Virus record (IMG/VR): IMGVR_UViG_3300027881_000029
Coordinates: 1 to 42,553 of that record
Reading direction: 5' to 3' (one strand)
Length of the DNA: 42,553 nt
From: a virus
Position 1 is the first letter of the stretch. Each line of letters opens with the position of its first letter. The position numbers and the translations under genes are program-made. Of this stretch, positions 4,034 through 20,694 are shown piece after piece. The notes under the pieces are model-generated. The model searched no databases, was not told where the DNA came from, and saw nothing but the letters and a program-made list of their open reading frames with translations.

Positions 4034-4062
4034 ATTATACGCCCATTTTCCGGCGAATGCAA
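4034..4062 (-). promoter_or_regulatory. sigma70-type promoter, leftward (TTGCAT-17-TATAAT)
   Basis: On the minus strand TTGCAT lies at 4062-4057 and a perfect TATAAT at 4039-4034, 17 bases apart. The transcript should start near 4027, directly before the gene at 4014. Its sequence and upstream context match the rightward promoter at 17,486-17,515, both being the outer edge of the duplicated palindromic module. Confidence 0.85.
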
Positions 4063-4078
4063 GCATTATTTTCATTTT

Positions 4079-4250
4079 CTGGTCCTCTGTGATCTTCTGC
4101 GATCCTCTTATAAAATCGCATTTGGGGGTGGCGCGGGTGTATAGTTAGTAATTATATAATATGAGTTTTACTTCTTACGTATACTAACATCCTGCGGCAC
4201 CCCCAGAATCATTTCCTAAGATGTCCCCAGAAGACCTCAGAGGACCAGGA
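4079..4250. repeat. palindromic regulatory module, left copy
   Basis: Two imperfect inverted arms (about 4079-4145 and 4184-4250) flank an AT-rich core. The core, 4146-4183, is exactly repeated in inverted orientation at 17359-17396 (38 of 38 bases). Arms carry AGAGG/AGAAG blocks spaced 10 bp, then a G/C-rich block (GGGGGTGGCGCGGG and its mirror). The right arm lies inside the 3' end of the gene at 4184-4465. With the promoter at 4034-4062 the whole stretch aligns with the right copy over roughly 240 bp. Confidence 0.85.
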
Positions 4251-4465
4251 TTCGAAATCCGATCGATGACCCTGCGCAAAATCATATTGGCCGTTGTCTG
4301 CCGCTTTTGGGCAGCAACCAGGTCGTGGTGGCGATCTTGCACCTTTTGATTTGCGCATATGCGGTCAGCTTTGGCCCTCTGCAACCGACCGCCCATATCA
4401 GATACTCCCAACTTGGCCATCTTCAGGTTGCTGATGGCTGCGGCCAGTTCCTTTTCATCATTCAT
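4184..4465 (-). CDS. small coiled-coil protein, 93 aa, last gene of the amidoligase operon
   Basis: The product begins MNDEKELAAAISNLKMAKLG and has a long Ala/Gln/Arg-rich heptad-like helix, likely a coiled coil. The start at 4465 overlaps the ATP-grasp stop (ATGA). The last 25 or so residues (NPGPLRSSGDILGNDSGGAA) are encoded by the right arm of the palindromic module, so this tail was probably acquired when the module inserted, or the arm serves as a terminator overlapping the gene. No function is recognised. Confidence 0.6.
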   Translation of the reverse strand: MNDEKELAAAISNLKMAKLGVSDMGGRLQRAKADRICANQKVQDRHHDLVAAQKRQTTANMILRRVIDRISNPGPLRSSGDILGNDSGGAAGC

Positions 4466-5205
4466 CGTACCATCTCCTTGAGCATTGTGACATAGTTGTC
4501 GAGAGTCGTCCCTTCGAGGCCGGGGGCGGTGTTGACTTCGATAGCATAGCACCGATCCTCTTTACCGTTCCAAATGATGTCGACCGCACCGAAGTCGAGG
4601 GAGAGAGCTGACATGGTATCAACGGCACATTGTTCCAACCCCTCCGGCGGGTCGAGGTCGTTGCGTTGGAAGATAAAGCCCGCGGCATGATTTCGTACCC
4701 TCCAGTCTTCAATTTCGGCATCTGCCCGACGTACCTTACGCTGCACATCGAAGCTCTTTCCGCCCCCCACATGGACGCGGTACTCCTCCTTCTTCTTGAT
4801 GTACAACACGTAGAGCGGAGCGTTCACCACTTGATCCGCCACCTCCGCAATCACAATTCCAGCACCGGAATGCCCAGCGAGCACTTTCCGGCACACTACA
4901 ATCTTCCCGTCGTTCGTCCACTCCTTCGCCACCTCCTTGTCCGTGGTAAACGATGGCGTCAGATCGGTGTCCACCAGCTTCTGGAAGAAGGTTCGCTTGT
5001 TGGATGCCTCGATAATGCACTCGGGGCGGTTGAACACTTGACATTTGTCGATCTCCGCGGTTGTTTCGATGGCTCCCCAGTTGATGACCTTCTTCCGGGG
5101 GCGGCCAATAAAGGTCTTGCTGTCGTGTTTGATCCGCCGAGCAGGGATGGCAAAGCGTAACGCCTTGGCACCCTTGCTTGCGAACTTATAGCTGTAGATT
5201 AGCAT
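4462..5205 (-). CDS. ATP-grasp ligase of the amidoligase cluster
   Basis: The 247-aa product shows ATP-grasp features. YVLYIKKKEEYRVHV lies in the middle and DFGAVDIIWN plus CYAIEVNTAPGLEG near the C-terminus, the last supplying the acidic and Asn metal ligands. ATP-grasp enzymes activate a carboxylate as an acyl phosphate and join it to an amine. Iyer and colleagues described phage gene neighbourhoods in which such enzymes accompany COOH-NH2 ligases and glutamine amidotransferases, and this operon fits that description. Its start shares a base with the upstream stop (TAATG). The substrate is unknown. Confidence 0.85.
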   Translation of the reverse strand: MLIYSYKFASKGAKALRFAIPARRIKHDSKTFIGRPRKKVINWGAIETTAEIDKCQVFNRPECIIEASNKRTFFQKLVDTDLTPSFTTDKEVAKEWTNDGKIVVCRKVLAGHSGAGIVIAEVADQVVNAPLYVLYIKKKEEYRVHVGGGKSFDVQRKVRRADAEIEDWRVRNHAAGFIFQRNDLDPPEGLEQCAVDTMSALSLDFGAVDIIWNGKEDRCYAIEVNTAPGLEGTTLDNYVTMLKEMVR

Positions 5206-6182
5206 TATTCCTCGCCACGTGCGAAGGGGTTAGGTTCCTGCATGCGCTGGGCACGGTGCTGTTGGCCTGCGATGACCTGTCGCAGCGCGGCCTCACGCTG
5301 TTCTCTATAACCATTACCGCGCTTGGGTGGACGCTCGCGGACACGGGGGTCGTCCAATACCTTCTCCATCTTACGCATGTAGTTATCGTGGCTGTGCTCG
5401 TCGAAGGCATACACAGCAGGCTGGATGCGACGAATACACTGTACCACCATTTGATGCATGTCCCGACACTCGACGAGTTCCTCGTATGGACCGAGGGCAT
5501 CAGTGATGAATTGGCCTGGGCCGATCGACACCGCTTCGACGATCTGCTGGGGTTTCTCGTACTGGAGGGATTTGTCCTTGAGGCGCAGCAGGATGTCCAC
5601 CCAGGTCTTGATGACGTTGAGATCCTCCGGTGTGCGCATGCCGCGGAACTCCATGCTACCATACTTCTCCAGCGCACCCAGGTTGATCGAGGCATAGCGG
5701 AACTGGTCGCCCGACATCCAGTGTACGGTATGCTCCTTGATGCACCTGGCGAAAGTAGGAATGAAGTGGGATGCGTCCCCGGTCCGCAAGCAGAACAGGT
5801 TACCCTCTCGGTCTTCACCACACCAGCGCATGAGCACGTCCTCGAACGCCAGGTAGAGCACGGCGAAGTTGAACGTCTGTCGCAGCGTGAGTTCCTGGCA
5901 GTTGACGTGGATATGGACGCCACAGCGTTCGCTCGGTTCCACCAGATACAAATCAGAAGCATGACGTCGCATAAGCAGGTCTATGACCTCCTTCACTTCG
6001 TCACGTGGCACCGGGTCTCGGAGCACGTACTCGGCACTGTTGCCGCGAAGGGAACCATCCCCCGTGACTGTCCAGTATTTGTCGTCATTCATGTCGAGAC
6101 GCGGCCCTTCAACCTCGACCTCGATGCCCACTTCGCCCGTTTGTTCCCTGACGCCGCGAAGGATTTTAAGCATCTTTATCAT
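5205..6182 (-). CDS. amidoligase (COOH-NH2 ligase, Amidoligase_2-like)
   Basis: The 325-aa product has the signature of the glutamine-synthetase-fold amidoligases. It shows VGIEVEVEGP near the N-terminus, TGDGSLRGNSAEYVL, CGVHIHVNCQ around residue 110, and YASINLGALEKYGSMEFRG. The acidic strands and the HIHVN block bind metal and ATP in this fold. The enzyme should form an amide or peptide bond between a carboxylate and an amine at the cost of ATP. The start overlaps the neighbour's stop (ATGA). A repeat copy lies at 5564, encoding KSLQ. Family is confident; substrate is unknown. Confidence 0.85.
   Translation of the reverse strand: MIKMLKILRGVREQTGEVGIEVEVEGPRLDMNDDKYWTVTGDGSLRGNSAEYVLRDPVPRDEVKEVIDLLMRRHASDLYLVEPSERCGVHIHVNCQELTLRQTFNFAVLYLAFEDVLMRWCGEDREGNLFCLRTGDASHFIPTFARCIKEHTVHWMSGDQFRYASINLGALEKYGSMEFRGMRTPEDLNVIKTWVDILLRLKDKSLQYEKPQQIVEAVSIGPGQFITDALGPYEELVECRDMHQMVVQCIRRIQPAVYAFDEHSHDNYMRKMEKVLDDPRVRERPPKRGNGYREQREAALRQVIAGQQHRAQRMQEPNPFARGEE
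5564..5574 (-). repeat. CAAATCCCTCC repeat
   Basis: Exact copy on the minus strand inside the Amidoligase_2-like gene (KSLQ codons). Confidence 0.9.
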
Positions 6183-6754
6183 TGCACTGTCTCCAGTAGT
6201 TCTTGTAGATAGAAGTGTTTGTCGAACAGCTCGTACTTGTCGTCCAGGCCCTTGCGACCCACCTTGCCAATGTGGCGGTGGATCAAATAGCCGTCTAAGC
6301 GAACGGCGAAGTCGCGGCTGACTGCCACCGTGCTCTTGTTGTTGAACAGCTCGTGCACACTCTCGAACTTCGGAAAGTCGTTGTACACTGTCTTGCCGAA
6401 TGCTCGGGAGTCGAGAAGCGCCCCGATCTCGGGCGTCCGCTTACCGTCAAACGCCGTGACCTTACAGTTACCGCGGCAGATGCCAATCTTCCACTGGCGG
6501 TTGGGGTATCGATCCACCAGGACTATGGATCGCTGCATATTGACGAAGCCCGTGGGGACCGGCACATAGTCGATACTCTTATGTCCCCAGTGGATAACGT
6601 GATGCTTTGCCACCCCAACTTGGTGGTATGCCAGACGAAAGCGTCCTGCGTCCACTTGTTCAACGTGGTCGATAAACACCGGGTCGCCCCCAATTCGAAT
6701 GACCGAGTGTTGGAGACGCATGTTGGCATTGCGCTCATCGTATAGATCAATCAT
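6179..6754 (-). CDS. unknown protein within the amidoligase cluster, 191 aa
   Basis: No family is recognised. The sequence alternates beta-prone stretches (RLQHSVIRIGGDPVFIDHVE, RSIVLVDRYPNRQWKIGIC) with helices and looks globular and soluble. It is locked between the two amidoligases by ATGA overlaps at both ends, so it is probably a stoichiometric partner or a third enzyme of the pathway. It may be an adaptor that presents the substrate, but this is only inference from position. Confidence 0.75.
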   Translation of the reverse strand: MIDLYDERNANMRLQHSVIRIGGDPVFIDHVEQVDAGRFRLAYHQVGVAKHHVIHWGHKSIDYVPVPTGFVNMQRSIVLVDRYPNRQWKIGICRGNCKVTAFDGKRTPEIGALLDSRAFGKTVYNDFPKFESVHELFNNKSTVAVSRDFAVRLDGYLIHRHIGKVGRKGLDDKYELFDKHFYLQELLETVQ

Positions 6755-7767
6755 TCGATTTCACCAATTACCACATCTTCCTGAGCATAGTCGTGCAACC
6801 TCCAGTTGTAATCCCTATCCTGTGGCGCACCCAGCTCGGCGACCTCGGCATCCTCCATACGAACGTCCTCGTCGTTACGTTCCAACTCAAAAGCCCCTGG
6901 AGCAACATTGTCAAGCGCACGTGCAAAGTCAATCAATCCATTCCGGGGGCGGGGCTGACGCATGGGATGCGCATGCTGCCACACTTCAATGCCGTATGGA
7001 GCGACTTGCTCCAACAAACCTGCACTGTTGGCAAAGCTGCCTTCGTTGATCGCCTCCTCTGGGCATTCGAACTTGTTGGCAAGTACGTGGCCCTGTTCCA
7101 GGTAGTACATGGCACTGGTAACAGCACGAAACACCCGACGGGACAGTTCGTTGGACTGGAGCCAGAAGTTGGACAGGACGCGGTACTCGACGCCGTAAGG
7201 CTTGGGCCGGAACGCACCCGCCTTGCCATAGAGAGCACGCCGCTCGGCGCTTTCGAGCTTGATCGCCGGGAGCGCTAGGAAATAATCGAGCTGCTTGACA
7301 ATGGCAGCACAGTCCTGCATGTGTTCTTCGGTGTACGGATCGTCGACATCTGCGAAGCCGATGTGGACATGCCCAGCAGCGGTACGCATGTTCGGGTTCT
7401 CAAGATCCGGTACCATGTTTTGCTGCATGGTATATGCGTTGTAGTCGGGGTCACACCCAAGGACAAGGGCTTCGGGAGGTTGTGCATTGATGTGTTCCTC
7501 CGTGAAGTACGCACATGGCTCGATGGCAAAGTGCAGGTTATCCGGCACCATCTTACGCATCTCAGACATGACGACATTGAGGTTGTTGCACCAGTCGTTC
7601 TCGTTCTCCGCCGGTTCGATGTTGAACTCAAGCGCCAGGCCATCGACCTGCACGGCTCCGTTCGCCACCGCATGCGGCTCTTCCTTCGTGCCAGGTATCA
7701 CACCGTGAGCGCTGTGGTATTGCTCTCCGTTGAGGAGAAACAGCTCTGGGTCTGCTCCTACTTTCAT
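6751..7767 (-). CDS. COOH-NH2 ligase-type amidoligase (second family)
   Basis: The 338-aa product begins MKVGADPELFLL, then GVIPGTKEEP, VQVDGLALEFNIEPA, GCDPDYNAY, AAGHVHIGF and GVEYRVLSNFW. This series of motifs is typical of phage COOH-NH2 ligase proteins of the glutamine-synthetase fold. It differs clearly from the neighbouring Amidoligase_2-like enzyme, so the phage has two distinct ligases. The start at 7767 was chosen for the ATGA overlap with the class II amidotransferase gene and because it begins right at the conserved GADPE block. The acidic C-terminal tail (about 60 residues) is probably disordered. Confidence 0.88.
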   Translation of the reverse strand: MKVGADPELFLLNGEQYHSAHGVIPGTKEEPHAVANGAVQVDGLALEFNIEPAENENDWCNNLNVVMSEMRKMVPDNLHFAIEPCAYFTEEHINAQPPEALVLGCDPDYNAYTMQQNMVPDLENPNMRTAAGHVHIGFADVDDPYTEEHMQDCAAIVKQLDYFLALPAIKLESAERRALYGKAGAFRPKPYGVEYRVLSNFWLQSNELSRRVFRAVTSAMYYLEQGHVLANKFECPEEAINEGSFANSAGLLEQVAPYGIEVWQHAHPMRQPRPRNGLIDFARALDNVAPGAFELERNDEDVRMEDAEVAELGAPQDRDYNWRLHDYAQEDVVIGEIE

Positions 7768-8993
7768 TTCTGATCTCCAAACATCATGTTTCGGGCTGCT
7801 GTCGCGCACTCACCACACATGGCAGTATCGGCCGAGAGAAACTCGATCTCGGCGTCAGTGAATTGTAGGTTTGTCCCGCAATCCAAACATTCTTTGTAGT
7901 GCCTCTGCCAGCTCACCGCGGTTAGTTCCAGATTCGTCCAGCAACGCCGCTTCCCCGAATCCACCTGCCCCTGAGCTTTGTGGACTTTCAGCGCCACCTT
8001 CTTGCGGAGGCGTTCGCGCTGGATAGGGTCTTTTGTAGCGTGCATGAACGGAATAACCTTGGCTACCTTTGCCGCCGGGCGTTCTTCCGTTTTAGGCGCT
8101 TTGCTGTCTGTTTCGCCTTTCGTTTCTGTTTTTTGCTGAGTGCTCGGGACTTGTTGGTTGGCCCGTGCGGCTGCTGCCGTGGCTCTTGCTCGCTCTTGGG
8201 CTTGGACTTGCGCTGTCCCCCGCCCGTAGCTGACGTAGGACGTGTGAACGACGTGCGAAAATGGGGTGAGCTGCTTTGACACGTGGCTCACCTCCTTCTT
8301 TACGTTGTCCCACTTGAACTTGAAGTGGAAGTTGGGCGACGGCGAACGAATCTCGTCCAGCTTGATGTTGTGGCGTAGCTCGATAACTTCTAGCATCCAC
8401 GACTCGGAGGCATAGAACACGGCGTCCCTGTTCTTGGTGTAAGCAAAGTGCAGCGTACGCTCCTTGTTGCGCAGCATGTTCATCACACCCTCATCCAGAT
8501 TCCACCAGATGAGTGCCGCGGCTCCGTCCAGCTTCGCCCAGGTCTTCTCAGGCCCGTGCTGGTTGATGGAGTTCAGGATGGTTTCGCTGTCTGTGTCCCA
8601 GTTACCCTCAATACCGAGATCGGTTATCCGCTTGAGCGCGTAGTCGTGCACGGTCCCGTTGTGCATACCGATGCAACGCCCGGCGATGAAGGGATGAGCA
8701 TTCGCGGTGGTCACTTCCCCCTTGGTAGCCCATCGGTTGTGTCCAAGGAAAGCCTTCCGCTTCAGGTTCTCCAGCTCCTGATAGCCCTTGGAATAGATGA
8801 GGTCCTGGGGCAGACACGCATCCTTGTACGTCATACATGTGTGTTTCTTTGCCCCTTTGATTAGTGGTTCCTCCGCAATGAAGGCAACCCCGGTGGAATG
8901 CGGTCCACGAACCACATCGAAGATGAGGAGGTCACGAAACCCCTTCTTGTAATCGGCCTTGTCGTCGCCGATCAAACCAACCAACCCACACAT
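7764..8993 (-). CDS. class II glutamine amidotransferase fused to a zinc-ribbon tail
   Basis: The 409-aa product starts MCGLVGLIG; removal of Met exposes the catalytic Cys of class II amidotransferases. GHNRWATKG and NAHPF...MHNGTVHDY complete the glutaminase site within the first 130 residues. After about residue 245 comes a low-complexity Ala/Gln/Lys/Thr linker, then a C-terminal four-Cys ribbon (CLDCGTNL ... CGECA). No synthetase domain is attached. The domain could supply ammonia from glutamine, or hydrolyse gamma-glutamyl-type amides made by the ligases. The ribbon may hold DNA, RNA or a partner. Overlaps with both neighbours (ATGA, TAATG). Confidence 0.88.
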   Translation of the reverse strand: MCGLVGLIGDDKADYKKGFRDLLIFDVVRGPHSTGVAFIAEEPLIKGAKKHTCMTYKDACLPQDLIYSKGYQELENLKRKAFLGHNRWATKGEVTTANAHPFIAGRCIGMHNGTVHDYALKRITDLGIEGNWDTDSETILNSINQHGPEKTWAKLDGAAALIWWNLDEGVMNMLRNKERTLHFAYTKNRDAVFYASESWMLEVIELRHNIKLDEIRSPSPNFHFKFKWDNVKKEVSHVSKQLTPFSHVVHTSYVSYGRGTAQVQAQERARATAAAARANQQVPSTQQKTETKGETDSKAPKTEERPAAKVAKVIPFMHATKDPIQRERLRKKVALKVHKAQGQVDSGKRRCWTNLELTAVSWQRHYKECLDCGTNLQFTDAEIEFLSADTAMCGECATAARNMMFGDQK

Positions 8994-9640
8994 TAGACTG
9001 ACACCCCGCAGTTTTCCTTGACATAGGCGAAGTAGCGATTGGCCAGATCGTCATGTCCTGGGAACTCAGGGTGGGGCTGGAAGCAGAGGGCGTTGAACTC
9101 CTCGTAGTAGCAGATCTCGACGTCCCGCCCCCTGCCGAAGACACGCTGCTCCTTCAGGTCCTTGGGGTTGATCGAGATCTTCTCCGTCGACTCAGATGCG
9201 ACACCGATGACCTCGGCATCCCGCGTTGGGATGATCATCTGGTGATGTGTTGAGGTGACATTGAACACCTCGCCCGTATTCTCATCGCGTGTCTCATGCA
9301 CGCCCGGAATACCGTGATTGTTGACGTCTTGGTACATCCGGCCTCCGCACATGACGTTGAGGAACTGGCCGCCGCGGCATATGCCAGCAACTGGGACACC
9401 GTTACGTCGGGCCGACAGAAAGATCTGCTGCTCGGCGAGATCCCGTATTGGATTGCAGTGGGTCGATCTATGCTTCGGCTCGCCGTAATACGTGGGGTCA
9501 ACGTCGCTTCCTCCGGTGAATTGGACGAGATCAGCCTCACGTATGTTGGTAACGATGCGCCAGCCTGCGCTCTTGAACATTTCGGTGTAGCCATGTGCGT
9601 AGTCCACGATGAGCACCGAGGGTGGTGTTTTACTTGCCAT
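8993..9640 (-). CDS. class I glutamine amidotransferase / gamma-glutamyl hydrolase-like protein
   Basis: The 215-aa product contains FTGGSDVDPTYYGE, the nucleophile elbow AGICRGGQFLNV and the His/Glu pair in FQPHPEF. This is the Cys-His-Glu triad of class I amidotransferases of the peptidase C26 branch, which includes PuuD and gamma-glutamyl hydrolases. Such enzymes cut gamma-glutamyl amide bonds. In this cluster it could release or trim the product of the ligases. The start at 9640 shares a base with the upstream stop (TAATG); a longer in-frame start at 9661 would overlap that gene more. Confidence 0.88.
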   Translation of the reverse strand: MASKTPPSVLIVDYAHGYTEMFKSAGWRIVTNIREADLVQFTGGSDVDPTYYGEPKHRSTHCNPIRDLAEQQIFLSARRNGVPVAGICRGGQFLNVMCGGRMYQDVNNHGIPGVHETRDENTGEVFNVTSTHHQMIIPTRDAEVIGVASESTEKISINPKDLKEQRVFGRGRDVEICYYEEFNALCFQPHPEFPGHDDLANRYFAYVKENCGVSV

Positions 9641-10572
9641 TAGACGTACTCCTTTTCCCATTTCTTGACTTGAGCTATTAGCTGGTCGCCAGATACTGTT
9701 TTGTAGTCATGCCCACCGTAACGACCGTCGATGTGAACGACCTTTTGTTTTACGGGACGCTCAAATTTGACTTCCTCGCCCTCCCCTGATGGATGGTCGT
9801 TGAAGAACATCGCCACGCCGTCATACTCACGGTCTTCGTGTATGGGTTCGAAGTCCCGCGTCGTTACGCTATTGTGCGTGGGCATCTCATGTGCGACAAA
9901 GTTCTGCACGCCTTCGACGCTCGTCTCACCACCCCAGCCGTTGAAGTCGAACGGCTTGTGAGCACCGCCCCCTTCAGAGTTAATGATCCAATGGTCTTTG
10001 TATTCGTCGCCATCCAGCGTTTTGATGAAATGTGTCGCGATGAGTGCAAAGTCCTTGTTGATGCCTCCCTTGGCCAACAAACCCCACGCAGCCACCATGC
10101 CGCGGTATTCTAACTGGAGGCGCTGCGACATTCCGGCCCCTATGATGTAAGGTGCTGGATATTCGACGTCGTACTCAACGCCGAACTTGTGGGCTTCCTT
10201 GGCGTCTTTGGTGACCATACAGGCCGCGTAGCCGCTTTCATTCGCAAGCCATGTATAATACTCTCGGCTTTCTTTCGGCGTTGGACTGTACCACTTGCTT
10301 TTGTCGTAGTCATAGTCGCCGCGCTCACGCTTGGTATCTGCGGCCCACTCGGCCTCGGCTCTTGCCGTACGGACTGAACGATAGCCAATGTAGTCATGAA
10401 AACCAGTGATTTTACTGGCGGGGAGATCACAATAGGATACTGCCGCGTAACAGGGTACCCCGATCTTATTTGAGAAGCTACCATCCTCGTGAGTAAAGCC
10501 CCAGTTGAAGATTTGGGACCGCCTTCTGACGCGCTTTCGGATGTGAGCGAGGGCTTCATTATGCTCACTCAT
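9640..10572 (-). CDS. unknown protein upstream of the amidoligase cluster, 310 aa
   Basis: No known family is recognised. It begins MSEHNEALAHIRKRVRRRSQ, a basic helix, followed by mixed alpha/beta sequence rich in aromatic and acidic residues (GDYDYDKSKWYS, YYTWLANESGYAACM). There is no signal peptide or membrane span. Stop and start overlap both neighbours, so it belongs to the same transcript and may be the target, a carrier or a further enzyme of the amidoligase system. Confidence 0.75.
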   Translation of the reverse strand: MSEHNEALAHIRKRVRRRSQIFNWGFTHEDGSFSNKIGVPCYAAVSYCDLPASKITGFHDYIGYRSVRTARAEAEWAADTKRERGDYDYDKSKWYSPTPKESREYYTWLANESGYAACMVTKDAKEAHKFGVEYDVEYPAPYIIGAGMSQRLQLEYRGMVAAWGLLAKGGINKDFALIATHFIKTLDGDEYKDHWIINSEGGGAHKPFDFNGWGGETSVEGVQNFVAHEMPTHNSVTTRDFEPIHEDREYDGVAMFFNDHPSGEGEEVKFERPVKQKVVHIDGRYGGHDYKTVSGDQLIAQVKKWEKEYV

Positions 10573-11554: not shown

Positions 11555-11715
11555 GTGAGTATCTCCAAAAGGTCTCTTCCAAACTTGGCATACTCGGTGT
11601 TAAGACAGTCCGATCCTGGGTCGAGTGCGTAAGTGAGGATATTGGCAAGATGCTGCAACTCATCCTCGTTGAGAGTGAGTCTGTACTCCAGGACTTTGAT
11701 GCTGGATAGGTTCAT
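11551..11715 (-). CDS. small protein of a three-member paralogous set, 54 aa
   Basis: VLEYRLTLNEDELQHLANIL repeats the strand-turn-helix core of the products at 10870-11034 and 11031-11207. It overlaps the membrane-protein gene by ATGA. The ATG follows three bases after the stop of a possible overlapping frame at 11719-11895. Confidence 0.65.
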   Translation of the reverse strand: MNLSSIKVLEYRLTLNEDELQHLANILTYALDPGSDCLNTEYAKFGRDLLEILT

Positions 11716-11718
11716 AAT

Positions 11719-11895
11719 TTAATCTTCCCTTCGTGAGGTGCGGAGACAGGTGTGGTCCATGACCGAGCCGGGCGAGCCATCATTGAGGCCCTTCCAGATG
11801 ATTCCGCCACACCGACAGGTAGCTCTTGCGCGACTCGGGTAGCGGTGCGGCTTCTTCTTTAACCGAGCATAGGGTGATTTGCTCTTCTTGTGCAA
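11719..11895 (-). CDS. possible small Cys-containing ORF overlapping the HNH gene, TTG start
   Basis: A second minus-strand frame, shifted from the HNH gene, stays open for 58 codons. It contains ATCRCGGIIWKGLNDG and a later HTC, a possible small zinc site. A TTG at 11895 is preceded by AAGGGA at suitable distance. Its TAA lies three bases before the next gene, filling what would otherwise be a 64-base gap in a tightly packed operon. No homology is known, and the overlap with the HNH C-terminus makes it uncertain. Confidence 0.3.
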   Translation of the reverse strand: MHKKSKSPYARLKKKPHRYPSRARATCRCGGIIWKGLNDGSPGSVMDHTCLRTSRRED

Positions 11896-12154
11896 GTTTA
11901 TGTCCCTTCAGTTGGTTGCAGCGGAGGTGAGTTACCTGTAAGTTGCGCTTAGCAGATGACCCACCATGTTTACGTGGTAGTATGTGGTCTAGGCTGTTAG
12001 ACCATGCTTGGAGGGATTTGGGCATCACATCAGTGAGTGTTGGGAGCGGTGTCCCACACAAGGCGCACAGGCCATGCTGCTGATGCCACAAATCTCTCTT
12101 CCACAGGGGGAGCATCCTCCGGCGTTTCTTGTTGAGTGAAGAGAATGCTCCCAT
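11780..12154 (-). CDS. HNH endonuclease
   Basis: The 124-aa product shows the HNH fold. CALCG at about residue 30, LDHILPRKHGG, NLQVTHLRCNQLKG supply the His-Asn-His residues and a structural CxxC...C zinc site. Phage HNH enzymes act as homing nucleases, or nick DNA for packaging or replication. It is a free-standing early gene at the head of the leftward operon, not next to the terminase. The ATG lies four bases after the stop of the upstream frame (12159-12422), suggesting coupled translation. A repeat copy at 12010 encodes KSLQ. Confidence 0.85.
   Translation of the reverse strand: MGAFSSLNKKRRRMLPLWKRDLWHQQHGLCALCGTPLPTLTDVMPKSLQAWSNSLDHILPRKHGGSSAKRNLQVTHLRCNQLKGHKLAQEEQITLCSVKEEAAPLPESRKSYLSVWRNHLEGPQ
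12010..12020 (-). repeat. CAAATCCCTCC repeat
   Basis: Exact minus-strand copy inside the HNH gene (KSLQ codons). Confidence 0.9.
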
Positions 12155-12158
12155 CAGC

Positions 12159-12422
12159 TCAGTCTTTGGCGAGGCGTTTTAGCATGTATCGTGTCTCCTG
12201 GTGGTGAGAGGGAGGACAGGATTGCCCTCCCCCTAGTCTATCCGGTACTTCTACAACCCCGGCACGGTTGCGGCTGGACCTTTTGAGATACCCTCTCCCC
12301 TTGCACGGCTTGAGGTCACTCTCACGAATCACTTCCCGGCACCCAGCGGTGCGCTCCCAAATCCCTCCGAATGAGGAGGAACCTACCAGCCTTGCGATCT
12401 CTTTGGTCGTGGTGTCTAGCAG
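12159..12422 (-). CDS. probable first leftward early gene with non-standard CTG start, 87 aa
   Basis: The minus strand has a 105-codon stretch without stop ending at 12159. No in-frame ATG, GTG or TTG lies near its beginning. A CTG at 12422 follows GGGAG by seven bases, and a promoter (-10 at 12464-12459) predicts a transcript starting near 12452, just upstream. The frame reads LLDTTTKEIARLVGSSSFGG, resembling a helix-turn-helix. The last eight codons (MLKRLAKD) also have their own AGGAG-preceded ATG at 12185, so an 8-residue leader peptide is the alternative. The product is not recognised. Confidence 0.4.
   Translation of the reverse strand: MLDTTTKEIARLVGSSSFGGIWERTAGCREVIRESDLKPCKGRGYLKRSSRNRAGVVEVPDRLGGGQSCPPSHHQETRYMLKRLAKD
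12358..12368 (+). repeat. CAAATCCCTCC repeat
   Basis: Exact copy in the leader/CTG-start ORF region upstream of the HNH gene, 348 bases from the previous copy. Confidence 0.9.
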
Positions 12423-12458
12423 CTCGCGTCTCCCATAGAAATCGCCGATCGAATTGAC

Positions 12459-12486
12459 ATCATACCTGAAAAAATTTCAAAGTCAA
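12459..12486 (-). promoter_or_regulatory. sigma70-type early promoter, leftward (TTGACT-16-TATGAT)
   Basis: TTGACT at 12486-12481 and TATGAT at 12464-12459 are separated by 16 bases on the minus strand. Transcription would start near 12452 and read the HNH gene and the whole amidoligase operon. Confidence 0.65.
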
Positions 12487-12560
12487 CAAATCGGTAAAAT
12501 CGTTTAAAATCAATGACTTAGCGGACAGTTTTGAATTATTCTAAAAGTTCACCTGTACCG
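12465..12560. other. AT-rich divergent intergenic region
   Basis: The roughly 330 bases between the leftward (12422) and rightward (12753) first genes hold no convincing gene. About 12465-12550 is strongly AT-rich (AAAAAATTTC, AAAATCGTTTAAAATC). It lies at the hinge between the two early operons, with promoters on both sides. It is a reasonable place for a replication origin or repressor sites, but nothing proves either. Confidence 0.4.
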
Positions 12561-12579
12561 AGGTCGCGTGCGTGATCAG

Positions 12580-12595
12580 CCACCTGTGCTCCTTA
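12580..12595 (+). repeat. 16-bp early-promoter repeat, copy 1
   Basis: CCACCTGTGCTCCTTA occurs here and, identically, at 14829-14844 and 16440-16455. This copy lies 75 bases upstream of the -35 box at 12671. A partial second copy (TCACCTGTGC) follows at 12601. Confidence 0.85.
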
Positions 12596-12670
12596 CGGAC
12601 TCACCTGTGCGCCGAGATGTGTAGTCGGCTGGCGTAGGGGGCGGGCAGCATGGGGACCTGAAGAAATCGC

Positions 12671-12699
12671 TTGACCGAAATTTGAGTTTATGGTAATCT
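12671..12699 (+). promoter_or_regulatory. sigma70-type early promoter, rightward (TTGACC-17-TAATCT)
   Basis: TTGACC at 12671-12676 and TAATCT at 12694-12699 are 17 bases apart, with TGG before the -10 box (extended -10). It is placed to transcribe the rightward early genes from 12753. Confidence 0.6.
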
Positions 12700-12752
12700 A
12701 ATTTTGATGGAAAAAATTTTTCACACTCCCCCACACAAGGAGAAGAACACCC

Positions 12753-12935
12753 ATGCATATCCCCTCCGAAGCTCTGGGGTTTGGCGTCCTCATACTCGCG
12801 CTGACCGTTCCCGGTGTGCTGTTTGCATGTCTCCACAGATATCTCTCGCACCGAGCAATCATGAAGCACGGCTATCCACCATCTGCGGTAGTCGAGGAGA
12901 TCAAGTGTTCAGCCTGCAACAACGGAGAACGCTGA
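12753..12935 (+). CDS. small membrane protein with C-terminal Cys pair, 60 aa
   Basis: Residues about 8-27 (LGFGVLILALTVPGVLFACL) form one transmembrane span. A basic stretch (HRYLSHRAIMKHG) and a CSAC pair near the C-terminus follow. AAGGAG lies ten bases upstream of the ATG. First gene of the rightward early operon. Function unknown. Confidence 0.75.
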   Translation: MHIPSEALGFGVLILALTVPGVLFACLHRYLSHRAIMKHGYPPSAVVEEIKCSACNNGER

Positions 12936-13132
12936 TGAGTCAGCAGTACCCACTAACCAACCTCATGGACCTAGCGTTCAAGTTGTTGGATGAAGACGAG
13001 GGACTGGGCCTCTGCTTCAAGTGCAGACATACACAGCCCAGTGACTACGAGGCAATCAAGGAGAAGTGTGAAGAGTGCGGCGACAACACTGTCTACTCCC
13101 CCCATGAGTTTATCCAAAGGGTTATACTATAA
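12935..13132 (+). CDS. small zinc-ribbon protein, 65 aa
   Basis: The product has CFKC (residues about 27-30) and CEEC about 17 residues later, a treble-clef or ribbon-like zinc site, in an otherwise acidic sequence (LLDEDEGLG). The ATG overlaps the previous stop (TGATG). Small phage zinc proteins often bind a host polymerase or nuclease, but no target can be named. Confidence 0.75.
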   Translation: MSQQYPLTNLMDLAFKLLDEDEGLGLCFKCRHTQPSDYEAIKEKCEECGDNTVYSPHEFIQRVIL

Positions 13133-13133
13133 C

Positions 13134-13352
13134 ATGACACAGCTTGAGAACATCACCACACTCCGCCATTGTGACTCCATCGAGGAAGCCAAGCGTCGCC
13201 GCCAGGCGGCGTACAAGCTGATGCACGAGGACGGCAAGGTCGTCACGCGCACGGTGATCACCGATCCGTTGAAGAGGTCAGTCGGCTACGCCATCGACGT
13301 CGTCACTCAGCGCACCGTGTTCTGGGTGGGCAACGGGGTTGACGGCAAATGA
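13134..13352 (+). CDS. small protein of unknown function, 72 aa
   Basis: The product begins MTQLENITTLRHCDSIEEAK, with an N-terminal helix and a C-terminal beta-rich part (GYAIDVVTQRTVFWVGN). It starts one base after the previous stop and ends overlapping the next ATG. No family is recognised. Confidence 0.7.
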   Translation: MTQLENITTLRHCDSIEEAKRRRQAAYKLMHEDGKVVTRTVITDPLKRSVGYAIDVVTQRTVFWVGNGVDGK

Positions 13353-13486
13353 GTGGTTCAATCATGGTTCAACGCCCCAACGGCACGTATGCCTGGATCA
13401 AGGCGCACCCATTCGTGCGTGTCTACCCTGTCTCCGCGCCGAAGCCCGCCCCCGTTCAACTCAACAAGGAAGCCCACAAGTCATGA
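13349..13486 (+). CDS. small protein of unknown function, 45 aa
   Basis: The frame MSGSIMVQRPNGTYAWIKAH...KEAHKS starts in an ATGA overlap with the previous gene and ends in an ATGA overlap with the next. It has a short beta segment and a Pro-rich tail. It is too short for family recognition. Confidence 0.6.
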   Translation: MSGSIMVQRPNGTYAWIKAHPFVRVYPVSAPKPAPVQLNKEAHKS

Positions 13487-13683
13487 AAATCAAATCCAAG
13501 CGTGTTACGACGTTCATCGGTGGCCGTGAGTACCGCGGTGACTTCATACCACAATACTTCGTGGTCGACGAGAATGTCGACAGAATCATCGGTATGTTCC
13601 AGGAGGAACGGTATGCGGTCGAGATGGCCGAGTGCGAGGTGAACTGCACGATGTGGCCCATCACCGGCATTGAAGAGGGTTGA
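13483..13683 (+). CDS. small beta-rich protein, 66 aa
   Basis: The product begins MKIKSKRVTTFIGGREYRGD and appears mostly beta-stranded, with an acidic middle and one late Cys. The start at 13483 is preceded by AAGGA about 15 bases upstream and by an ATGA overlap. A longer frame opens upstream but would cover the small gene before it. Confidence 0.7.
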   Translation: MKIKSKRVTTFIGGREYRGDFIPQYFVVDENVDRIIGMFQEERYAVEMAECEVNCTMWPITGIEEG

Positions 13684-13685
13684 GC

Positions 13686-14105
13686 ATGGCGAGGAAGGAC
13701 AAGCGTTACAAGCGCAAGTTAACCGATGAACAGCGGACTGAGCTGTTGAGGTTGTATGGTGGCACGGGCATGTCGGCAAGAGAGATTGGGTACATGTTCC
13801 ACATCACCAAGTCCGCGGTCAACGCCATTGCTTATCGGGAGGGCGTGGTCAAGTGGGACCCAAGCAGTCCTCCGGGTGTGGTCGTACGCAAGTTCCTTCC
13901 TTACCGCCATGTGCCGGAGGTTAACCTGGATACTGTTGCACGTGACAAGGATGTGCGGCCGACTGACTTCTGTCGTTGTGCTGTGATCTGCGACTGGTGC
14001 TGCGGTATCGACGCTGCGGAGCCGACTGATTGGCGCATCGCGTCGCTGAAAGGACGAACCTTGAAGGATCTAGTTTTAAGTAATCACACCATGAGGATCA
14101 AGTAA
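13686..14105 (+). CDS. putative helix-turn-helix regulator with Cys cluster, 139 aa
   Basis: Residues about 15-50 (LTDEQRTELLRLYGGTGMSA, REIGYMFHITKSAVNAIAYR) form a helix-turn-helix like that of resolvase or sigma-type regulators. A C-terminal cluster CRCAVICDWCC probably binds zinc. The N-terminus is strongly basic. GAGGG stands just upstream of the ATG at 13686. It is a good candidate for a protein that reads one of the repeated DNA motifs in this window, though no evidence links it to a particular one. Confidence 0.75.
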   Translation: MARKDKRYKRKLTDEQRTELLRLYGGTGMSAREIGYMFHITKSAVNAIAYREGVVKWDPSSPPGVVVRKFLPYRHVPEVNLDTVARDKDVRPTDFCRCAVICDWCCGIDAAEPTDWRIASLKGRTLKDLVLSNHTMRIK

Positions 14106-14431
14106 TGCACAAGATACTGCAAGTAATCATACTGCTGCACTTAGTATTCGCCATCGGTGCTGCGCCAGCCCGTGCGGTCGAGGCCGCGGACTATGCGGAA
14201 GGGTTCGACGCCTGCATGAGCAAGGTGGGCAAGCTGCGGAGGGATTTGGCACAAGAATACTGTGCGTGCGCCATCAACCGCATCGGCGTAATGATCGACG
14301 AGGGTCACGAGGGCTTGCGGTGGTCCTACGACAACCGTGACACCCGCGAGGGGGCGGCAGTGGGCAAGCGCATCATCACGGATGTGTCCCGAGCTTGCAT
14401 CAAAGAGATGCTGGGGAAGCCGCGAACATGA
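14105..14431 (+). CDS. putative secreted/periplasmic small protein, 108 aa
   Basis: A signal peptide is clear: MHKILQVIILLHLVFAIGAA followed by PARA, with likely cleavage after ARA. The mature part has four Cys residues (C37, C53, C55 and one late), suggesting disulfides in the periplasm. Mature helices are charged. No lipobox is present. Function unknown; envelope or superinfection roles are possible. Confidence 0.75.
   Translation: MHKILQVIILLHLVFAIGAAPARAVEAADYAEGFDACMSKVGKLRRDLAQEYCACAINRIGVMIDEGHEGLRWSYDNRDTREGAAVGKRIITDVSRACIKEMLGKPRT
14238..14248 (-). repeat. CAAATCCCTCC repeat
   Basis: Exact minus-strand copy inside the exported-protein gene (RRDL codons on the plus strand). Confidence 0.9.
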
Positions 14432-14634
14432 TGTTTCGTGCCGTTGACTGCTCGGCCATCTTACCCAGGAAGGATGGCTACATCACCGCCACTATTTGTG
14501 GCATCAACTACAAGTTCCAGTACGACAACGATGCGTCGCGAGATGCCGCGCTCCTGGCGGCTTACGAGTCGTGGAACCAAGCGGAGATGGCGGAGGGATT
14601 TGAGTGGGTCACCGTCCAGGGGTACAACACATGA
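14428..14634 (+). CDS. small protein of unknown function, 68 aa
   Basis: The product MMFRAVDCSAILPRKDGYIT has beta strands followed by a helix containing AALLAAYESWNQAEMAEGF. ATGA overlaps on both sides. A repeat copy at 14592 encodes AEGF. Confidence 0.65.
   Translation: MMFRAVDCSAILPRKDGYITATICGINYKFQYDNDASRDAALLAAYESWNQAEMAEGFEWVTVQGYNT
14592..14602 (-). repeat. CAAATCCCTCC repeat
   Basis: Exact minus-strand copy inside the 68-aa gene (AEGF codons), 354 bases from the previous copy. Confidence 0.9.
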
Positions 14635-14825
14635 TAGCACCACCACTCAGGGTGAAGATGGAAGATGAGCGATACGAGTACCTTGAGTTCTGCGTCGAGT
14701 TCCGCTCCATCATCTCGGCGCTCAACCGGCGTGGTTTGCTTGGTTGGCGTGTTGTGAAGGCAGATGAGTTCCGGGACAAAGCAGGCACGCTGTTTGTCAA
14801 TGTGCTGATGGAACGCAAATGGTGA
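14631..14825 (+). CDS. DUF4177-like small protein, 64 aa
   Basis: The order of a beta strand (YEYLEFCVEF), a helix ending in LNRRGLLGWRVV, and a final strand (TLFVNVLMERKW) resembles the small DUF4177-type fold found in many phages and bacteria. The resemblance is by pattern only. Its start overlaps the previous stop, and it closes this sub-operon four bases before the second copy of the 16-bp repeat. Confidence 0.65.
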   Translation: MIAPPLRVKMEDERYEYLEFCVEFRSIISALNRRGLLGWRVVKADEFRDKAGTLFVNVLMERKW

Positions 14826-14828
14826 CGC

Positions 14829-14844
14829 CCACCTGTGCTCCTTA
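14829..14844 (+). repeat. 16-bp early-promoter repeat, copy 2
   Basis: An identical CCACCTGTGCTCCTTA begins four bases after the stop of the preceding gene and 87 bases upstream of the -35 box at 14932. As at copy 1, ATGTGTAGT follows within about 35 bases. Confidence 0.85.
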
Positions 14845-14931
14845 TCCAGTTGCATGCATGTGTAGTGTGGACAGGATAATGGGTGAGGAGTGCAGGATAC
14901 TGGCTGCCCGGAGTGCTGAGAAATTTTTTTC

Positions 14932-14960
14932 TTGACACGCCAAGCGATCCGTGGCATGAT
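14932..14960 (+). promoter_or_regulatory. sigma70-type early promoter, rightward (TTGACA-17-CATGAT)
   Basis: A perfect TTGACA at 14932-14937 and a weaker CATGAT at 14955-14960 are 17 bases apart. It serves the gene group from 15007. The weak -10 box leaves room for activation. Confidence 0.75.
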
Positions 14961-15006
14961 CTGATCCTCGCAAACGCAACCACCACGGCCCAGGAGGCCA
15001 ACACAC

Positions 15007-15189
15007 ATGAGACAACGACCGATGATCAACCTGCTAAAGTCCGGCTCCGTGAGTAACGGCTGGACCTACGAACTCACGGTGAATTGGGATTACCGAAACG
15101 TCGCCGAGTTCAAGATTAAGCGTGACGCCATAGTCCAGGCCCGCGCACTTCACGCCGCCCGCGGCGGCACTCTCAACATCGCAGTCTAG
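15007..15189 (+). CDS. small beta-rich protein, 60 aa
   Basis: The product MRQRPMINLLKSGSVSNGWT... is beta-rich and ends with an Ala/Arg helix. The ribosome site AGGAGG with spacer CCAACACAC is nearly identical to that of the next gene. First gene after the promoter at 14932. Function unknown. Confidence 0.7.
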   Translation: MRQRPMINLLKSGSVSNGWTYELTVNWDYRNVAEFKIKRDAIVQARALHAARGGTLNIAV

Positions 15190-15200
15190 GAGGCCAACAC

Positions 15201-15485
15201 ATGACACCCACATCTCACACACTCTCGACCCGGCGGCGCGCCGCCAAGCTGTTGTCGGTCCTCGACGTCCACGTGACCCAGACCGACAGGATGAACCAGG
15301 TCGATGTGTATCGGCTGGCGATGCAGCTCGCACATCTGGTGGCTCCCGATGCGGACGCCAACGAGTTGACCGACCACGAGGCACATCGGGGCGTTGACGG
15401 TCGCCCGGCGCTGGACGGTCCCAACATCAAGTATGGCGACGATGTGTGGACGCTGATGTGTCCGATGTGCGACATCGATGACTGA
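15201..15485 (+). CDS. small protein with C-terminal CxxC, 94 aa
   Basis: An N-terminal helical part rich in Arg and Leu is followed by acidic sequence and a final CPMCDIDD. The ribosome site AGGAGGCCAACACATG copies the one upstream of 15007, suggesting local duplication of leader sequence. No family is recognised. Confidence 0.7.
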   Translation: MTPTSHTLSTRRRAAKLLSVLDVHVTQTDRMNQVDVYRLAMQLAHLVAPDADANELTDHEAHRGVDGRPALDGPNIKYGDDVWTLMCPMCDIDD

Positions 15486-15537
15486 GCATTGGGGGCGGTC
15501 GTGTGGCCGCCCCAACAACCCTGAGAGGTACGACACG

Positions 15538-15696
15538 ATGACAACACGATCCAGGACATTCAAGGCTGCACACGTTGACTGGACATACTACCGTGATTGG
15601 CTTGAGAGGCTTGAGGCCGAAGTCCACAACGGCGAGCGTGAACACTGGGCGCGGCTACACGCCGATGTGGCCTGCAATCTTAACGAGGAGGACTGA
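15538..15696 (+). CDS. small helical protein, 52 aa
   Basis: The product MTTRSRTFKAAHVDWTYYRD is followed by an acidic amphipathic helix. The start at 15538 was chosen because GAGAGG lies upstream; an in-frame ATG at 15478 lacks a ribosome site and overlaps the previous gene. Function unknown. Confidence 0.65.
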   Translation: MTTRSRTFKAAHVDWTYYRDWLERLEAEVHNGEREHWARLHADVACNLNEED

Positions 15697-15699
15697 GAC

Positions 15700-15924
15700 A
15701 TGGCGAGATACATACCGGCGATTGTGCATACGTGGTTCCCAGGCCAGACCGACCACGAGTATGCCGTGATGACCGATGTGGCGATCAGTGTGCTGGACGC
15801 CGCCAAGGCGCGGGGCAAGGGCATACCATGCGATGTGGCGATACGCTGGACGCATGACGGTCAGCCCGTGGTGACGATGACGCAAGTGGATGTGGGCGCA
15901 CCGATCAAAGGAGAGACAGCATGA
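15700..15924 (+). CDS. small protein of unknown function, 74 aa
   Basis: The product MARYIPAIVHTWFPGQTDHE has alternating beta and helix segments and is soluble. GAGG lies upstream of the ATG, and the stop overlaps the next start. No family is recognised. Confidence 0.7.
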   Translation: MARYIPAIVHTWFPGQTDHEYAVMTDVAISVLDAAKARGKGIPCDVAIRWTHDGQPVVTMTQVDVGAPIKGETA

Positions 15925-16121
15925 GACGTCACATACAGGCCGATGGGTGCAAGATTGAGCGTCGTTGGCGCGACAACATGACGGCGCTAGCCCGACAAGA
16001 GCTGGCTGATGAGTACTGGGACGCTAGGCGCTCAGGGGCGGTGACGGTTGGGTTTGACATGTGGCTGAAGATGCGTGGTCGCGAAGCGTACCGGCTGGTA
16101 AGGCTGGGAGGCACGGTATGA
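15921..16121 (+). CDS. small basic protein, 66 aa
   Basis: The product MRRHIQADGCKIERRWRDNM is rich in Arg and aromatic residues and predicted helical, consistent with binding nucleic acid or an acidic partner. ATGA overlaps at both ends. Confidence 0.65.
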   Translation: MRRHIQADGCKIERRWRDNMTALARQELADEYWDARRSGAVTVGFDMWLKMRGREAYRLVRLGGTV

Positions 16122-16171
16122 GCTGGCTTGAGTTGTTCATAGCGTGGATCGTAGGAGAGTTGCTGTCATGA
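16118..16171 (+). CDS. possible 17-residue hydrophobic peptide
   Basis: MSWLELFIAWIVGELLS sits exactly between two genes with ATGA overlaps at both ends (16118-16121 and 16168-16171). It is a short amphipathic membrane helix. Its position argues for translation; it is otherwise too short to judge. Confidence 0.45.
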   Translation: MSWLELFIAWIVGELLS

Positions 16172-16371
16172 GCTTAGACCCGCAGACTGTGGCTGGTGAG
16201 ACTAACATCTGGATCATAGCCAACCTGTTGTGGATCATACCTGCCGTATTCCTGTTCTGGTGGACCGAGTTACGACCCAAGCCTGATTGGCAGTCCAAGT
16301 ACCGGCTGGTGCCGTTGACTGATGATGAGGCCAAGGCACGTACCAGTGACCAGCGCACGGATGGTGTGTGA
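16168..16371 (+). CDS. small membrane protein, 67 aa
   Basis: Residues about 13-34 (NIWIIANLLWIIPAVFLFWW) form one transmembrane helix. The rest is a charged soluble tail (RPKPDWQSKYRLVPLTDDEA). The start overlaps the peptide gene at 16118. Size and topology allow a small holin or envelope factor, without firm support. Confidence 0.7.
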   Translation: MSLDPQTVAGETNIWIIANLLWIIPAVFLFWWTELRPKPDWQSKYRLVPLTDDEAKARTSDQRTDGV

Positions 16372-16372
16372 T

Positions 16373-16552
16373 ATGCCTGCTACCAACTACATGTTGTGGC
16401 TGGTAGTGGGGATGCCATGTGCGTCCACGTTGGGAAAGGCCACCTGTGCTCCTTATCGTGTCGGGTGTGCGCGGTCCTTTGTTGGAACGCGAGCGCTTGA
16501 CAAATTGGGCAAAGGCTGTCATTCTCTCAATCAGCGGCAAACATCCCGTTAG
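16373..16552 (+). CDS. doubtful ORF spanning regulatory repeats, 59 aa
   Basis: A frame MPATNYMLWLVVGMPCASTL starts two bases after the previous gene and has six Cys. It runs across the third copy of the 16-bp repeat and the promoter at 16497, so the sequence is better explained as regulatory. No ribosome site is visible beyond the preceding gene's end. Confidence 0.25.
   Translation: MPATNYMLWLVVGMPCASTLGKATCAPYRVGCARSFVGTRALDKLGKGCHSLNQRQTSR
16440..16455 (+). repeat. 16-bp early-promoter repeat, copy 3
   Basis: An identical CCACCTGTGCTCCTTA ends 41 bases upstream of the -35 box at 16497. Confidence 0.85.
16497..16525 (+). promoter_or_regulatory. sigma70-type early promoter, rightward (TTGACA-17-CATTCT)
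   Basis: TTGACA at 16497-16502 and CATTCT at 16520-16525 are 17 bases apart. It precedes the gene at 16580. As at 14932, a perfect -35 is paired with a poor -10. Confidence 0.55.
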
Positions 16553-16579
16553 CCGCAAACGAAGGTAAACACCACCACC

Positions 16580-16891
16580 ATGACTATACAAGTCTATAGC
16601 TTCCCGCTCTTGATCCCGCTCTTGACTAGCGCCCAAGTCCACGCTCTGCCCACGACCAAGAAGGATGGTTCCGGTACACGGCACGTTCACGCCGATGCGT
16701 ACTGTCAGATTGACTACGTCGATCCGGAGAGTGGCGTACGGTACACTGGTAACGCCAACATACAGTGCATGAGCCGTGAAGAACAGGCGGCTGCTAAGAC
16801 CATGCCCAAGGATCCCAAGACTGGGAAGAAGCAAACGTTCGTGGCTCGGGACTTCGTCGCCAGCTTAGCCAAGGCCGAAGCCGCCGAGTAG
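16580..16891 (+). CDS. putative exported small protein, 103 aa
   Basis: The N-terminus MTIQVYSFPLLIPLLTSAQVHA looks like a short signal peptide, though it lacks a basic N-region. The mature part has two Cys (AYCQIDYVDPE, NIQCMS) in beta-like context and a charged C-terminal helix. The ribosome site is weak (GAAGG, 14 bases away). It is the last gene before the long non-coding region. Confidence 0.55.
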   Translation: MTIQVYSFPLLIPLLTSAQVHALPTTKKDGSGTRHVHADAYCQIDYVDPESGVRYTGNANIQCMSREEQAAAKTMPKDPKTGKKQTFVARDFVASLAKAEAAE

Positions 16892-17280
16892 CCGCCCACC
16901 GATAGCCTAGGCTGTCAAGCCCCGGCTTCCCACACGGGAGGCCGGGGCAAAAAATCGTAGGGGCCGCGTTTCGGTCAGAAGGAAATTGGCAGGATTGCGC
17001 CATTTTTTGACATTGGTCTGGCCTCCAAAGCATCCCGGTGCCCCTCACCTACGCGCGATACCCACCCCGCACCTGGTCTAGCCCGTGCCCGATTTCGTCG
17101 CGAACACATAGTATCCCGCGCTCCTTTCAGTCGCGGTTGGTCTGGCCGGTGAGCGCCTAGAGGGGGCGGATTTACCTGCGTTCCCCAGTACTCTCACACA
17201 CCCGCCCCCGCCATGCGCCCTGCACTTTCCACCAAAATTTTTCAAAAATTCCCAACCTCTGCGGCCAGACCATTAAAAAA
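16892..17280. other. non-coding region with hairpin and GGTCTGGCC repeats
   Basis: No gene is supported here. GGTCTGGCC occurs near 17017 and 17139 and inverted (GGCCAGACC) near 17263, with a variant GGTCTAGCC near 17077. AT-rich runs (AAAATTTTTCAAAAATT) lie around 17233-17250. The combination of short repeats, AT-rich DNA and lack of genes would suit a replication origin, which is inference. Confidence 0.5.
16919..16948 (+). terminator. strong GC hairpin after the early operon, possible terminator
   Basis: GCCCCGGCTTCCC and GGGAGGCCGGGGC pair over 13 positions (one G-T) around a four-base loop, 27 bases after the last early gene. An A-run follows in place of T, so it is not a standard intrinsic terminator on the plus strand. 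It may act with another factor or as an mRNA 3'-end protector. Confidence 0.45.
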
Positions 17281-17475
17281 TCCTGGGCCTCTGTGCGCTT
17301 CTGTGCCCTTCTTAGGAAACGGCCCTGACCCCCCTTGCGGGAGTATACTATCGCGCTCTATACGTAAGAAGTAAAACTCATATTATATAATTACTATATA
17401 TCCTAACCTACACTCCCGCGGCACCCCCAAATCGATTTTCTAAGAAGCCCACAGAAACCCACAGAAGCCCAGAAA
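17281..17475. repeat. palindromic regulatory module, right copy
   Basis: This is the inverted counterpart of 4079-4250. Its core, 17359-17396, is the exact reverse complement of 4146-4183. Left arm blocks CCTCTGTG/CTTCTGTG/CTTCTTAG and right arm blocks AGAAG/AGAAA/AGAAG/AGAAA are spaced 10 bp. C/G-rich blocks (CCCCCCTTGCGGG; CCCGCGGCACCCCC) lie inside them. The module runs into the promoter at 17486. Confidence 0.85.
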
Positions 17476-17485
17476 AAAATAATCC

Positions 17486-17515
17486 TTGCATTCAACCATC
17501 CGGCCGTGCTATAAT
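17486..17515 (+). promoter_or_regulatory. sigma70-type promoter, rightward (TTGCAT-18-TATAAT)
   Basis: TTGCAT at 17486-17491 and a perfect TATAAT at 17510-17515 are 18 bases apart. Transcription should begin at about 17522, essentially on the ATG at 17521. It mirrors the leftward promoter at 4034-4062. Confidence 0.85.
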
Positions 17516-17520
17516 AAGAT

Positions 17521-18491: not shown

Positions 18492-18515
18492 CAAAAAAGG
18501 GGTCCTAAATAATCC

Positions 18516-20653: not shown

Positions 20654-20658
20654 TTTGC

Positions 20659-20688: not shown

Positions 20689-20694
20689 AGTAAC

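Follow-up and report, generated by a model that had tools for sequence, protein, structure and literature searches.

Inverted, iteron-bearing palindromes joined to outward promoters, possible replication origins, in a podovirus genome fragment

The DNA considered here is the virus record IMGVR_UViG_3300027881_000029, which comprises 42,553 bases without end repeats and is called the window throughout. Its early region is bracketed by two inverted copies of a palindromic module, module A on the left and module B on the right. Each copy may be a composite cis element in which a replication origin, made up of iterons and a DNA-unwinding element, is fused to the promoter of an operon; from the sequence features described below, we place the probability of this reading at slightly less than one half. 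In such an element the mirrored triplets of 10-bp iterons flanking an AT-rich core would be the binding sites of a phage initiator, which would melt the core, and an outward promoter of the TTGCAT-TATAAT class would switch on the replication operon (left) or the terminase and structural operon (right). Transcription directed away from the core could aid its opening, and the two copies, which lie 13 kb apart and face in opposite directions, could act like the oriL/oriR pair of the Bacillus phage SPP1.

Structure of the modules

The two modules are inverted duplicates from end to end, as a preliminary description of this DNA had claimed. When the module at 4.0-4.25 kb is aligned locally with the 17.28-17.55 kb segment in reverse complement, the score is 214, versus a chance maximum of 38 among 300 random pairs drawn from a dinucleotide model. 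The copies share a perfect 38-bp AT-rich core, TAGTAATTATATAATATGAGTTTTACTTCTTACGTATA, which is read on the plus strand in module A and on the minus strand in module B (Table 1), and no other copy of the module is present in the window. On the inner side the homology ends sharply at AATCCTGG; an open reading frame (ORF) ending at 4184 extends into module A. Each module is also an imperfect palindrome, with self-complementary alignment scores of 128 and 84 (chance maxima 62 and 44). The palindromy first described is therefore real, but the size given for it, about 240 bp, is too large, since the palindrome itself is only about 170 bp long on the left and about 190 bp on the right. A protelomerase-type telomere was considered and set aside, the centre being asymmetric.

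The preliminary description had missed three features: the mirrored 10-bp iterons, the exceptionally low stability of the cores and a further pair of TTGCAT-TATAAT promoters, near 18.5 kb and lacking a palindrome. Three tandem 10-bp repeats (nYYTCTGnGn) are present in each of the four arms and are mirrored about the core. All four arms fit the pattern YYTCTGNGNNYYTCTGNGNNYNTCTTA with 0 mismatches, and the next best site in the window outside the modules has 5. The mean self-similarity of the four arms at a lag of 10 is 0.65, compared with a mean of 0.27 and a maximum of 0.54 in 5000 column shuffles that preserve the homology between arms. Because the observed value exceeds that of every such shuffle, the arms are, as far as sequence can tell, repeat arrays of the protein-binding kind, beyond mere strand complementarity. 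Between iterons and core lie GC-rich boxes, TGGGGGTGGCGCGGG in module A and GCGGGAGTATA in module B.

The cores themselves rank first and second in the window for lowest duplex stability whether stretches of 30, 40, 50 or 60 bp are considered (z about -5). At 40 bp, the least stable stretch is 17365-17404 (z -4.9), followed by 4139-4178 (z -4.7). Each module consequently has two features expected of an iteron-type origin, namely regularly spaced short direct repeats and an adjacent AT-rich, easily melted element. A further repeat, (C/T)TGGTCTRGCC, occurs four times (at 17013, 17073, 17137 and 17263, the last inverted) in the noncoding DNA just inside module B.

Table 1. Positions of the module parts, predicted promoters and neighbouring genes in the window
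Feature	Position	Strand	Remark
Module A (left copy)	4034-4252	-	Read with outward leftward transcription; from alignment with module B
Outward promoter of module A, predicted	4034-4062	-	TTGCAT-17-TATAAT; AATAATGC just before
Three 10-bp iterons, promoter-side arm of module A	4083-4112	+	0-mismatch YYTCTGNGNNYYTCTGNGNNYNTCTTA
GC-rich box, module A	4123-4137	+	Pairs with 4191-4205, 87% complementary
AT-rich 38-bp core of module A	4146-4183		Candidate DNA-unwinding element; second least stable 40 bp of the window
Three 10-bp iterons, inner arm of module A	4214-4244	-	Mirror image
Module B (right copy)	17279-17517	+	Read with outward rightward transcription; from alignment with module A
Three 10-bp iterons, inner arm of module B	17287-17317	+	
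GC-rich box, module B	17337-17347	+	Pairs with 17409-17419, 91% complementary
AT-rich 38-bp core of module B	17359-17396		Candidate DNA-unwinding element; least stable 40 bp of the window
Three 10-bp iterons, promoter-side arm of module B	17437-17468	-	Mirror image
Outward promoter of module B, predicted	17486-17515	+	TTGCAT-18-TATAAT; AATAATCC just before
Fourth promoter of the class, predicted	18462-18491	-	Back-to-back partner of the third; without palindrome
Third promoter of the class, predicted	18516-18545	+	AATAATCCTTGCAT...TATAAT; without palindrome; ahead of small-terminase gene
Small protein gene	3793-4014	-	First behind promoter A, start codon inferred; then PD-(D/E)XK nuclease gene 2506-3393
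First ORF behind promoter B	17529-17933	+	Likely start an internal ATG; leads to terminase genes
Terminase small subunit gene	18551-18967		Downstream of module B
Terminase large subunit gene	19094-20653		Downstream of module B

Promoters

A TTGCAT...TATAAT promoter at the outer edge of both modules, facing outward, had been proposed, and this is what is found: the spacing is 17 or 18 bp, and genes begin about 20-55 bp beyond. With TATAAT, a -35 box at a spacing of 16-18 bp and a gene downstream, both are predicted to be promoters of the sigma-70 type. The TTGCAT-TATAAT class has four sites in the window, compared with 0-1 in 20 random sequences, and the box AATAATnCTTGCAT is common to three of the four. 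Promoter and palindrome are separable parts, since the pair at 18.46-18.55 kb exists without a palindrome. Between these back-to-back promoters (18462-18545) lies a GGACCCC...GGGGTCC inverted repeat.

Two other repeated motifs accompany promoter-like sites elsewhere. The repeat CACCTGTGCTCCTTA at 12581, 14829 and 16441 precedes, by about 40-100 bp, each of three early promoter-like sites that point rightward and is a possible early operator. A motif of the CAAATCCCTCCAAG type is present at 39192, 31841, 18408 and 12020 (minus); one copy lies in a perfect TTGACA-TATAAT promoter and one in an HNH endonuclease gene. The motif may be a homing or regulator site.

Palindromes upstream of terL in related phages

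Searches with the large terminase subunit (TerL), portal and capsid proteins yielded relatives in which the neighbourhood of the terL gene could be compared. The closest contig, L003 (8.4 kb, too short to reach the module), has 52% identity in TerL and 62% in the portal protein; other relatives show about 40% portal and about 60% capsid identity. No relative found shares the module sequence. Palindromes are nevertheless present at the same place, before the terminase operon, in several related podoviruses (DSL-LC04, 20554-20773; L158, 6030-6310; L190, 2880-3062; L195, 1394-1570). Like the modules, these have mirrored repeats and are AT-rich, and several contain the least stable DNA of the available sequence; unlike them, they have other iteron and core sequences, and an inverted second copy was found in none of the relatives examined. 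The best likeness is that of L158. There, 11-bp CTGGGGGATAC units form mirrored arrays on both sides of an AT-rich centre; the element lies 2.2 kb upstream of terL, with short early genes on one side and the late operon on the other. A similarity between the core and that of L158 (P about 0.01) was dropped, as it was equally good when reversed.

In those relatives where terL could be located, palindromes with a span of at least 60 bp number 11 in 160 kb upstream of terL versus 2 in 903 kb elsewhere (P about 5e-8), a count that is uncorrected for the noncoding bias upstream of terL and that includes the close kin L190 and L195. One of the two "elsewhere" palindromes is the DSL-LC04 module, 6.3 kb upstream of terL. 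The least stable 40 bp of the available sequence falls inside a palindrome in DSL-LC04 (a complete genome), G029, L195 and L157, and among 21 genomes or large genome parts, about half have their least stable stretch no more than 6.5 kb upstream of terL. In the relative L135, the region upstream of terL (13150-14330) contains three direct copies of a promoter cassette, each ending in the palindrome TTATCGGTACTGGCTAGCCAGTACCGATAA just before a start codon.

Searches of wider collections were negative. The core has no match in viral and genome collections, the iteron pattern has none in viral contigs, and blastn of the modules against phages and plasmids returned matches at chance level only. The GC-box pattern was tried as well; its 19 viral matches are about the chance expectation and lack a palindrome.

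Comparison with known origins

SPP1 is a lytic phage of 44 kb whose oriL and oriR, 12-13 kb apart, consist of direct repeats and an AT-rich unwinding element; the repeats are bound by the initiator gp38/G38P, transcriptional signals flank the segment that contains oriR, and the second origin is believed to halt forks and set off the synthesis of concatemers (PMC6316719, PMC3485210). As far as a comparison by description goes, the modules resemble this pair in having two copies at a similar distance (13 kb), direct repeats and an AT-rich element, and they differ in that the copies are inverted, form long palindromes with mirrored 10-bp iterons and are joined to an outward promoter. For lambdoid phages, an origin of iterons and an AT-rich region is described (PMC7466680). 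The likeness to the modules is that of short iterons beside an AT-rich region. The lambda origin differs in being single and intragenic, with longer iterons on one side only. For the Vibrio satellite PLE, the portion of the source consulted reports a noncoding origin with repeated, partly palindromic iterons that are bound by RepA, based on deletion and binding assays (PMC7145576). This origin is like the modules in those three traits of the DNA; it is unlike them in being single, on a satellite and of a different iteron length, and in that portion a flanking promoter pair is not described. Outside the phages, oriS and oriL of herpes simplex virus are imperfect palindromes with initiator sites in both arms, an AT centre and adjacent promoters, and are present in more than one copy per genome. 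Their anatomy is similar to that of the modules, although the virus is unrelated and homology is not implied. The parts of the modules have precedents, and the whole arrangement is found nowhere else in the collections searched.

Origin or transcriptional control

The iteron triplets in all arms, the first and second ranks of the cores in instability and the GC-rich boxes that border them speak for an origin, as does the position of each module next to a promoter class specific to the window. Consistent with this are the palindromes of relatives, which cluster upstream of terL, in several cases with the least stable DNA and in L158 with mirrored iterons. Other observations weigh on the opposite side. 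The window has no recognised gene for a primase, a polymerase (polymerase A was tested for), a helicase loader or an initiator, and the lack of the last is weak evidence because the genome is incomplete. GC skew has no turn at the modules and tracks gene direction; being confounded in this way, it is uninformative about an origin. A surplus of palindromes is to be expected in the AT-rich noncoding DNA that precedes terL, the least stable stretch lies elsewhere in about half of the relatives, and in G023 (the record of L158) the module is only third for instability. Finally, iterons beside a promoter fit transcriptional control equally well.

Such control, with no part in replication, is the main rival, and we regard it as a serious possibility if a less probable one. 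An activator or repressor would act on the mirrored iterons, might bend or loop the AT-rich core in doing so, and would time the outward promoters after the early operons. In both modules a gap of 12-15 bp separates the iterons from the -35 box, this box is TTGCAT versus TTGACA or TTGACT in the internal late promoters, the modules stand at both boundaries between early and next operons, and other repeated promoter cassettes occur near terL in relatives. However, iterons are absent from the two 18.5-kb promoters of this class, a mere spacer does not need 38 perfectly kept bp that are also the least stable DNA of the window, and the distal mirrored array is unnecessary for simple activation. The outward promoters, mirrored iterons and least stable cores fit both roles that had been suggested for the modules from the outset, the start of the next transcription unit and a pair of replication origins.

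If the composite origin and promoter is the correct explanation, a broader picture can be drawn, which we consider doubtful. The same initiator-bound palindrome, in two inverted copies, would govern both the initiation of replication and the switch-on of the replication and structural operons; the pair could set fork direction or stall forks for concatemer synthesis; and the recurrent palindromic unwinding element upstream of terL would be the general origin of a large podovirus family. The major capsid proteins of this family match at least about 600 stretches of public viral contigs, and we know of no mapped origin for it, from a search that was not exhaustive. Should the module be an origin, the recurring palindrome upstream of terL would give a concrete, testable location across the family, and an inverted origin-promoter pair would be an unusual coupling of DNA replication to late gene expression.

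RNA, recombination and mobile-element explanations

The remaining explanations are improbable even when taken jointly. Of these, the first is that the modules act as RNA: the 3' ends of the early transcripts would fold into a hairpin of about 60 pairs that terminates or stabilises early mRNA or is processed from it. As single strands both modules do fold far better than their shuffles (z = -7.0 each), and 28 stem pairs are common to the two copies, 26 of them unchanged, two changed on both sides and none on one side. Yet among the 86 pairs that can be tested, 27 are disrupted in one of the copies, and the two compensatory changes fall on iteron position 1, where mirrored DNA sites explain them; for these reasons a conserved RNA stem is not needed, and conservation of the structure is weak. 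An RNA stem also has no use for direct repetition within an arm, and no Rfam family matches the modules. In the outward direction the hairpin is followed by A-rich rather than the U-rich sequence of an intrinsic terminator, and with no U-run after it in the direction of early transcription, the idea that the module marks the end of early transcription gained no positive evidence. The hairpin may have a roadblock or RNase III role. We judge a primarily RNA-based element to be a poor candidate.

Still less probable is a pair of sites for site-specific recombination, in which a core with arm-type sites, like phage att or the 2-micron FRT pair, would flip the 13-kb middle, as the preliminary description had supposed. 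An identical, asymmetric core lies within diverged arms in inverted orientation, and tandem 10-bp arm sites around a core recall the arm sites of integrases. The identical tract is, however, only 38 bp long, and no tyrosine or serine recombinase (PF00589, PF00239) is encoded in the window, a weak point given that the genome is incomplete. No relative shows both orientations, only one record having the sequence. A flip would change little, because both modules have the same orientation relative to outward transcription and both outward operons would still lie behind equivalent promoters.

Least probable of all is a short mobile palindromic element, similar to a miniature inverted-repeat transposable element, inserted twice upstream of two pre-existing promoters: the sharp stop of homology at AATCCTGG, the ORF that runs into module A and the occurrence of the promoter class without a palindrome would suit it, but the copies number exactly two, each sits 12-15 bp away from a promoter of this one class, and their orientation to transcription is identical. 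There is no clear target duplication, the viral, phage, plasmid and genome collections searched contain no copies, and tandem iterons are not a trait of such elements.

Genome context

Judged by its TerL, portal, GroES-like, capsid and adaptor proteins, which point to the podovirus DSL-LC04 and the Pelagibacter phages HTVC023P/027P, the window is a fragment of a podovirus genome, kin of DSL-LC04 and HTVC023P. Relatives of this type have genomes of 58-61 kb that include primase, helicase and polymerase genes. Polymerase A, for which the window was tested, is absent, and primase, helicase, helicase loader and initiator genes were not recognised among the genes of this fragment. Since the replication genes of the relatives are not recognised, the window is taken to be incomplete; probably the replication genes are missing off its left end and the tail genes off its right end.

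The gene layout described earlier, with a strand switch at 12.2-12.75 kb and the modules bracketing divergent early operons, is correct. Module B heads genes that run to terminase and structure. The closest annotated relative of the PD-(D/E)XK nuclease encoded behind promoter A belongs to Caulobacter phage Kuura, where it precedes helicase and polymerase genes; module A is therefore probably at the head of a replication operon. A weak sigma-region-4-like helix-turn-helix protein, encoded at 13680-14105, was considered as the iteron binder and set aside, having no database match and an uninformative structure model (predicted local distance difference test score 34).

Between the modules, at 4462-9661 (minus), genes for ATP-grasp, amidoligase and COOH.NH2 ligase proteins and two glutamine amidotransferases are clustered, which suggests peptide or surface modification. 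Far to the right, at 33669-38996, a protein of 1775 residues with numerous degenerate repeats is encoded, probably a tail fibre or similar structural protein.

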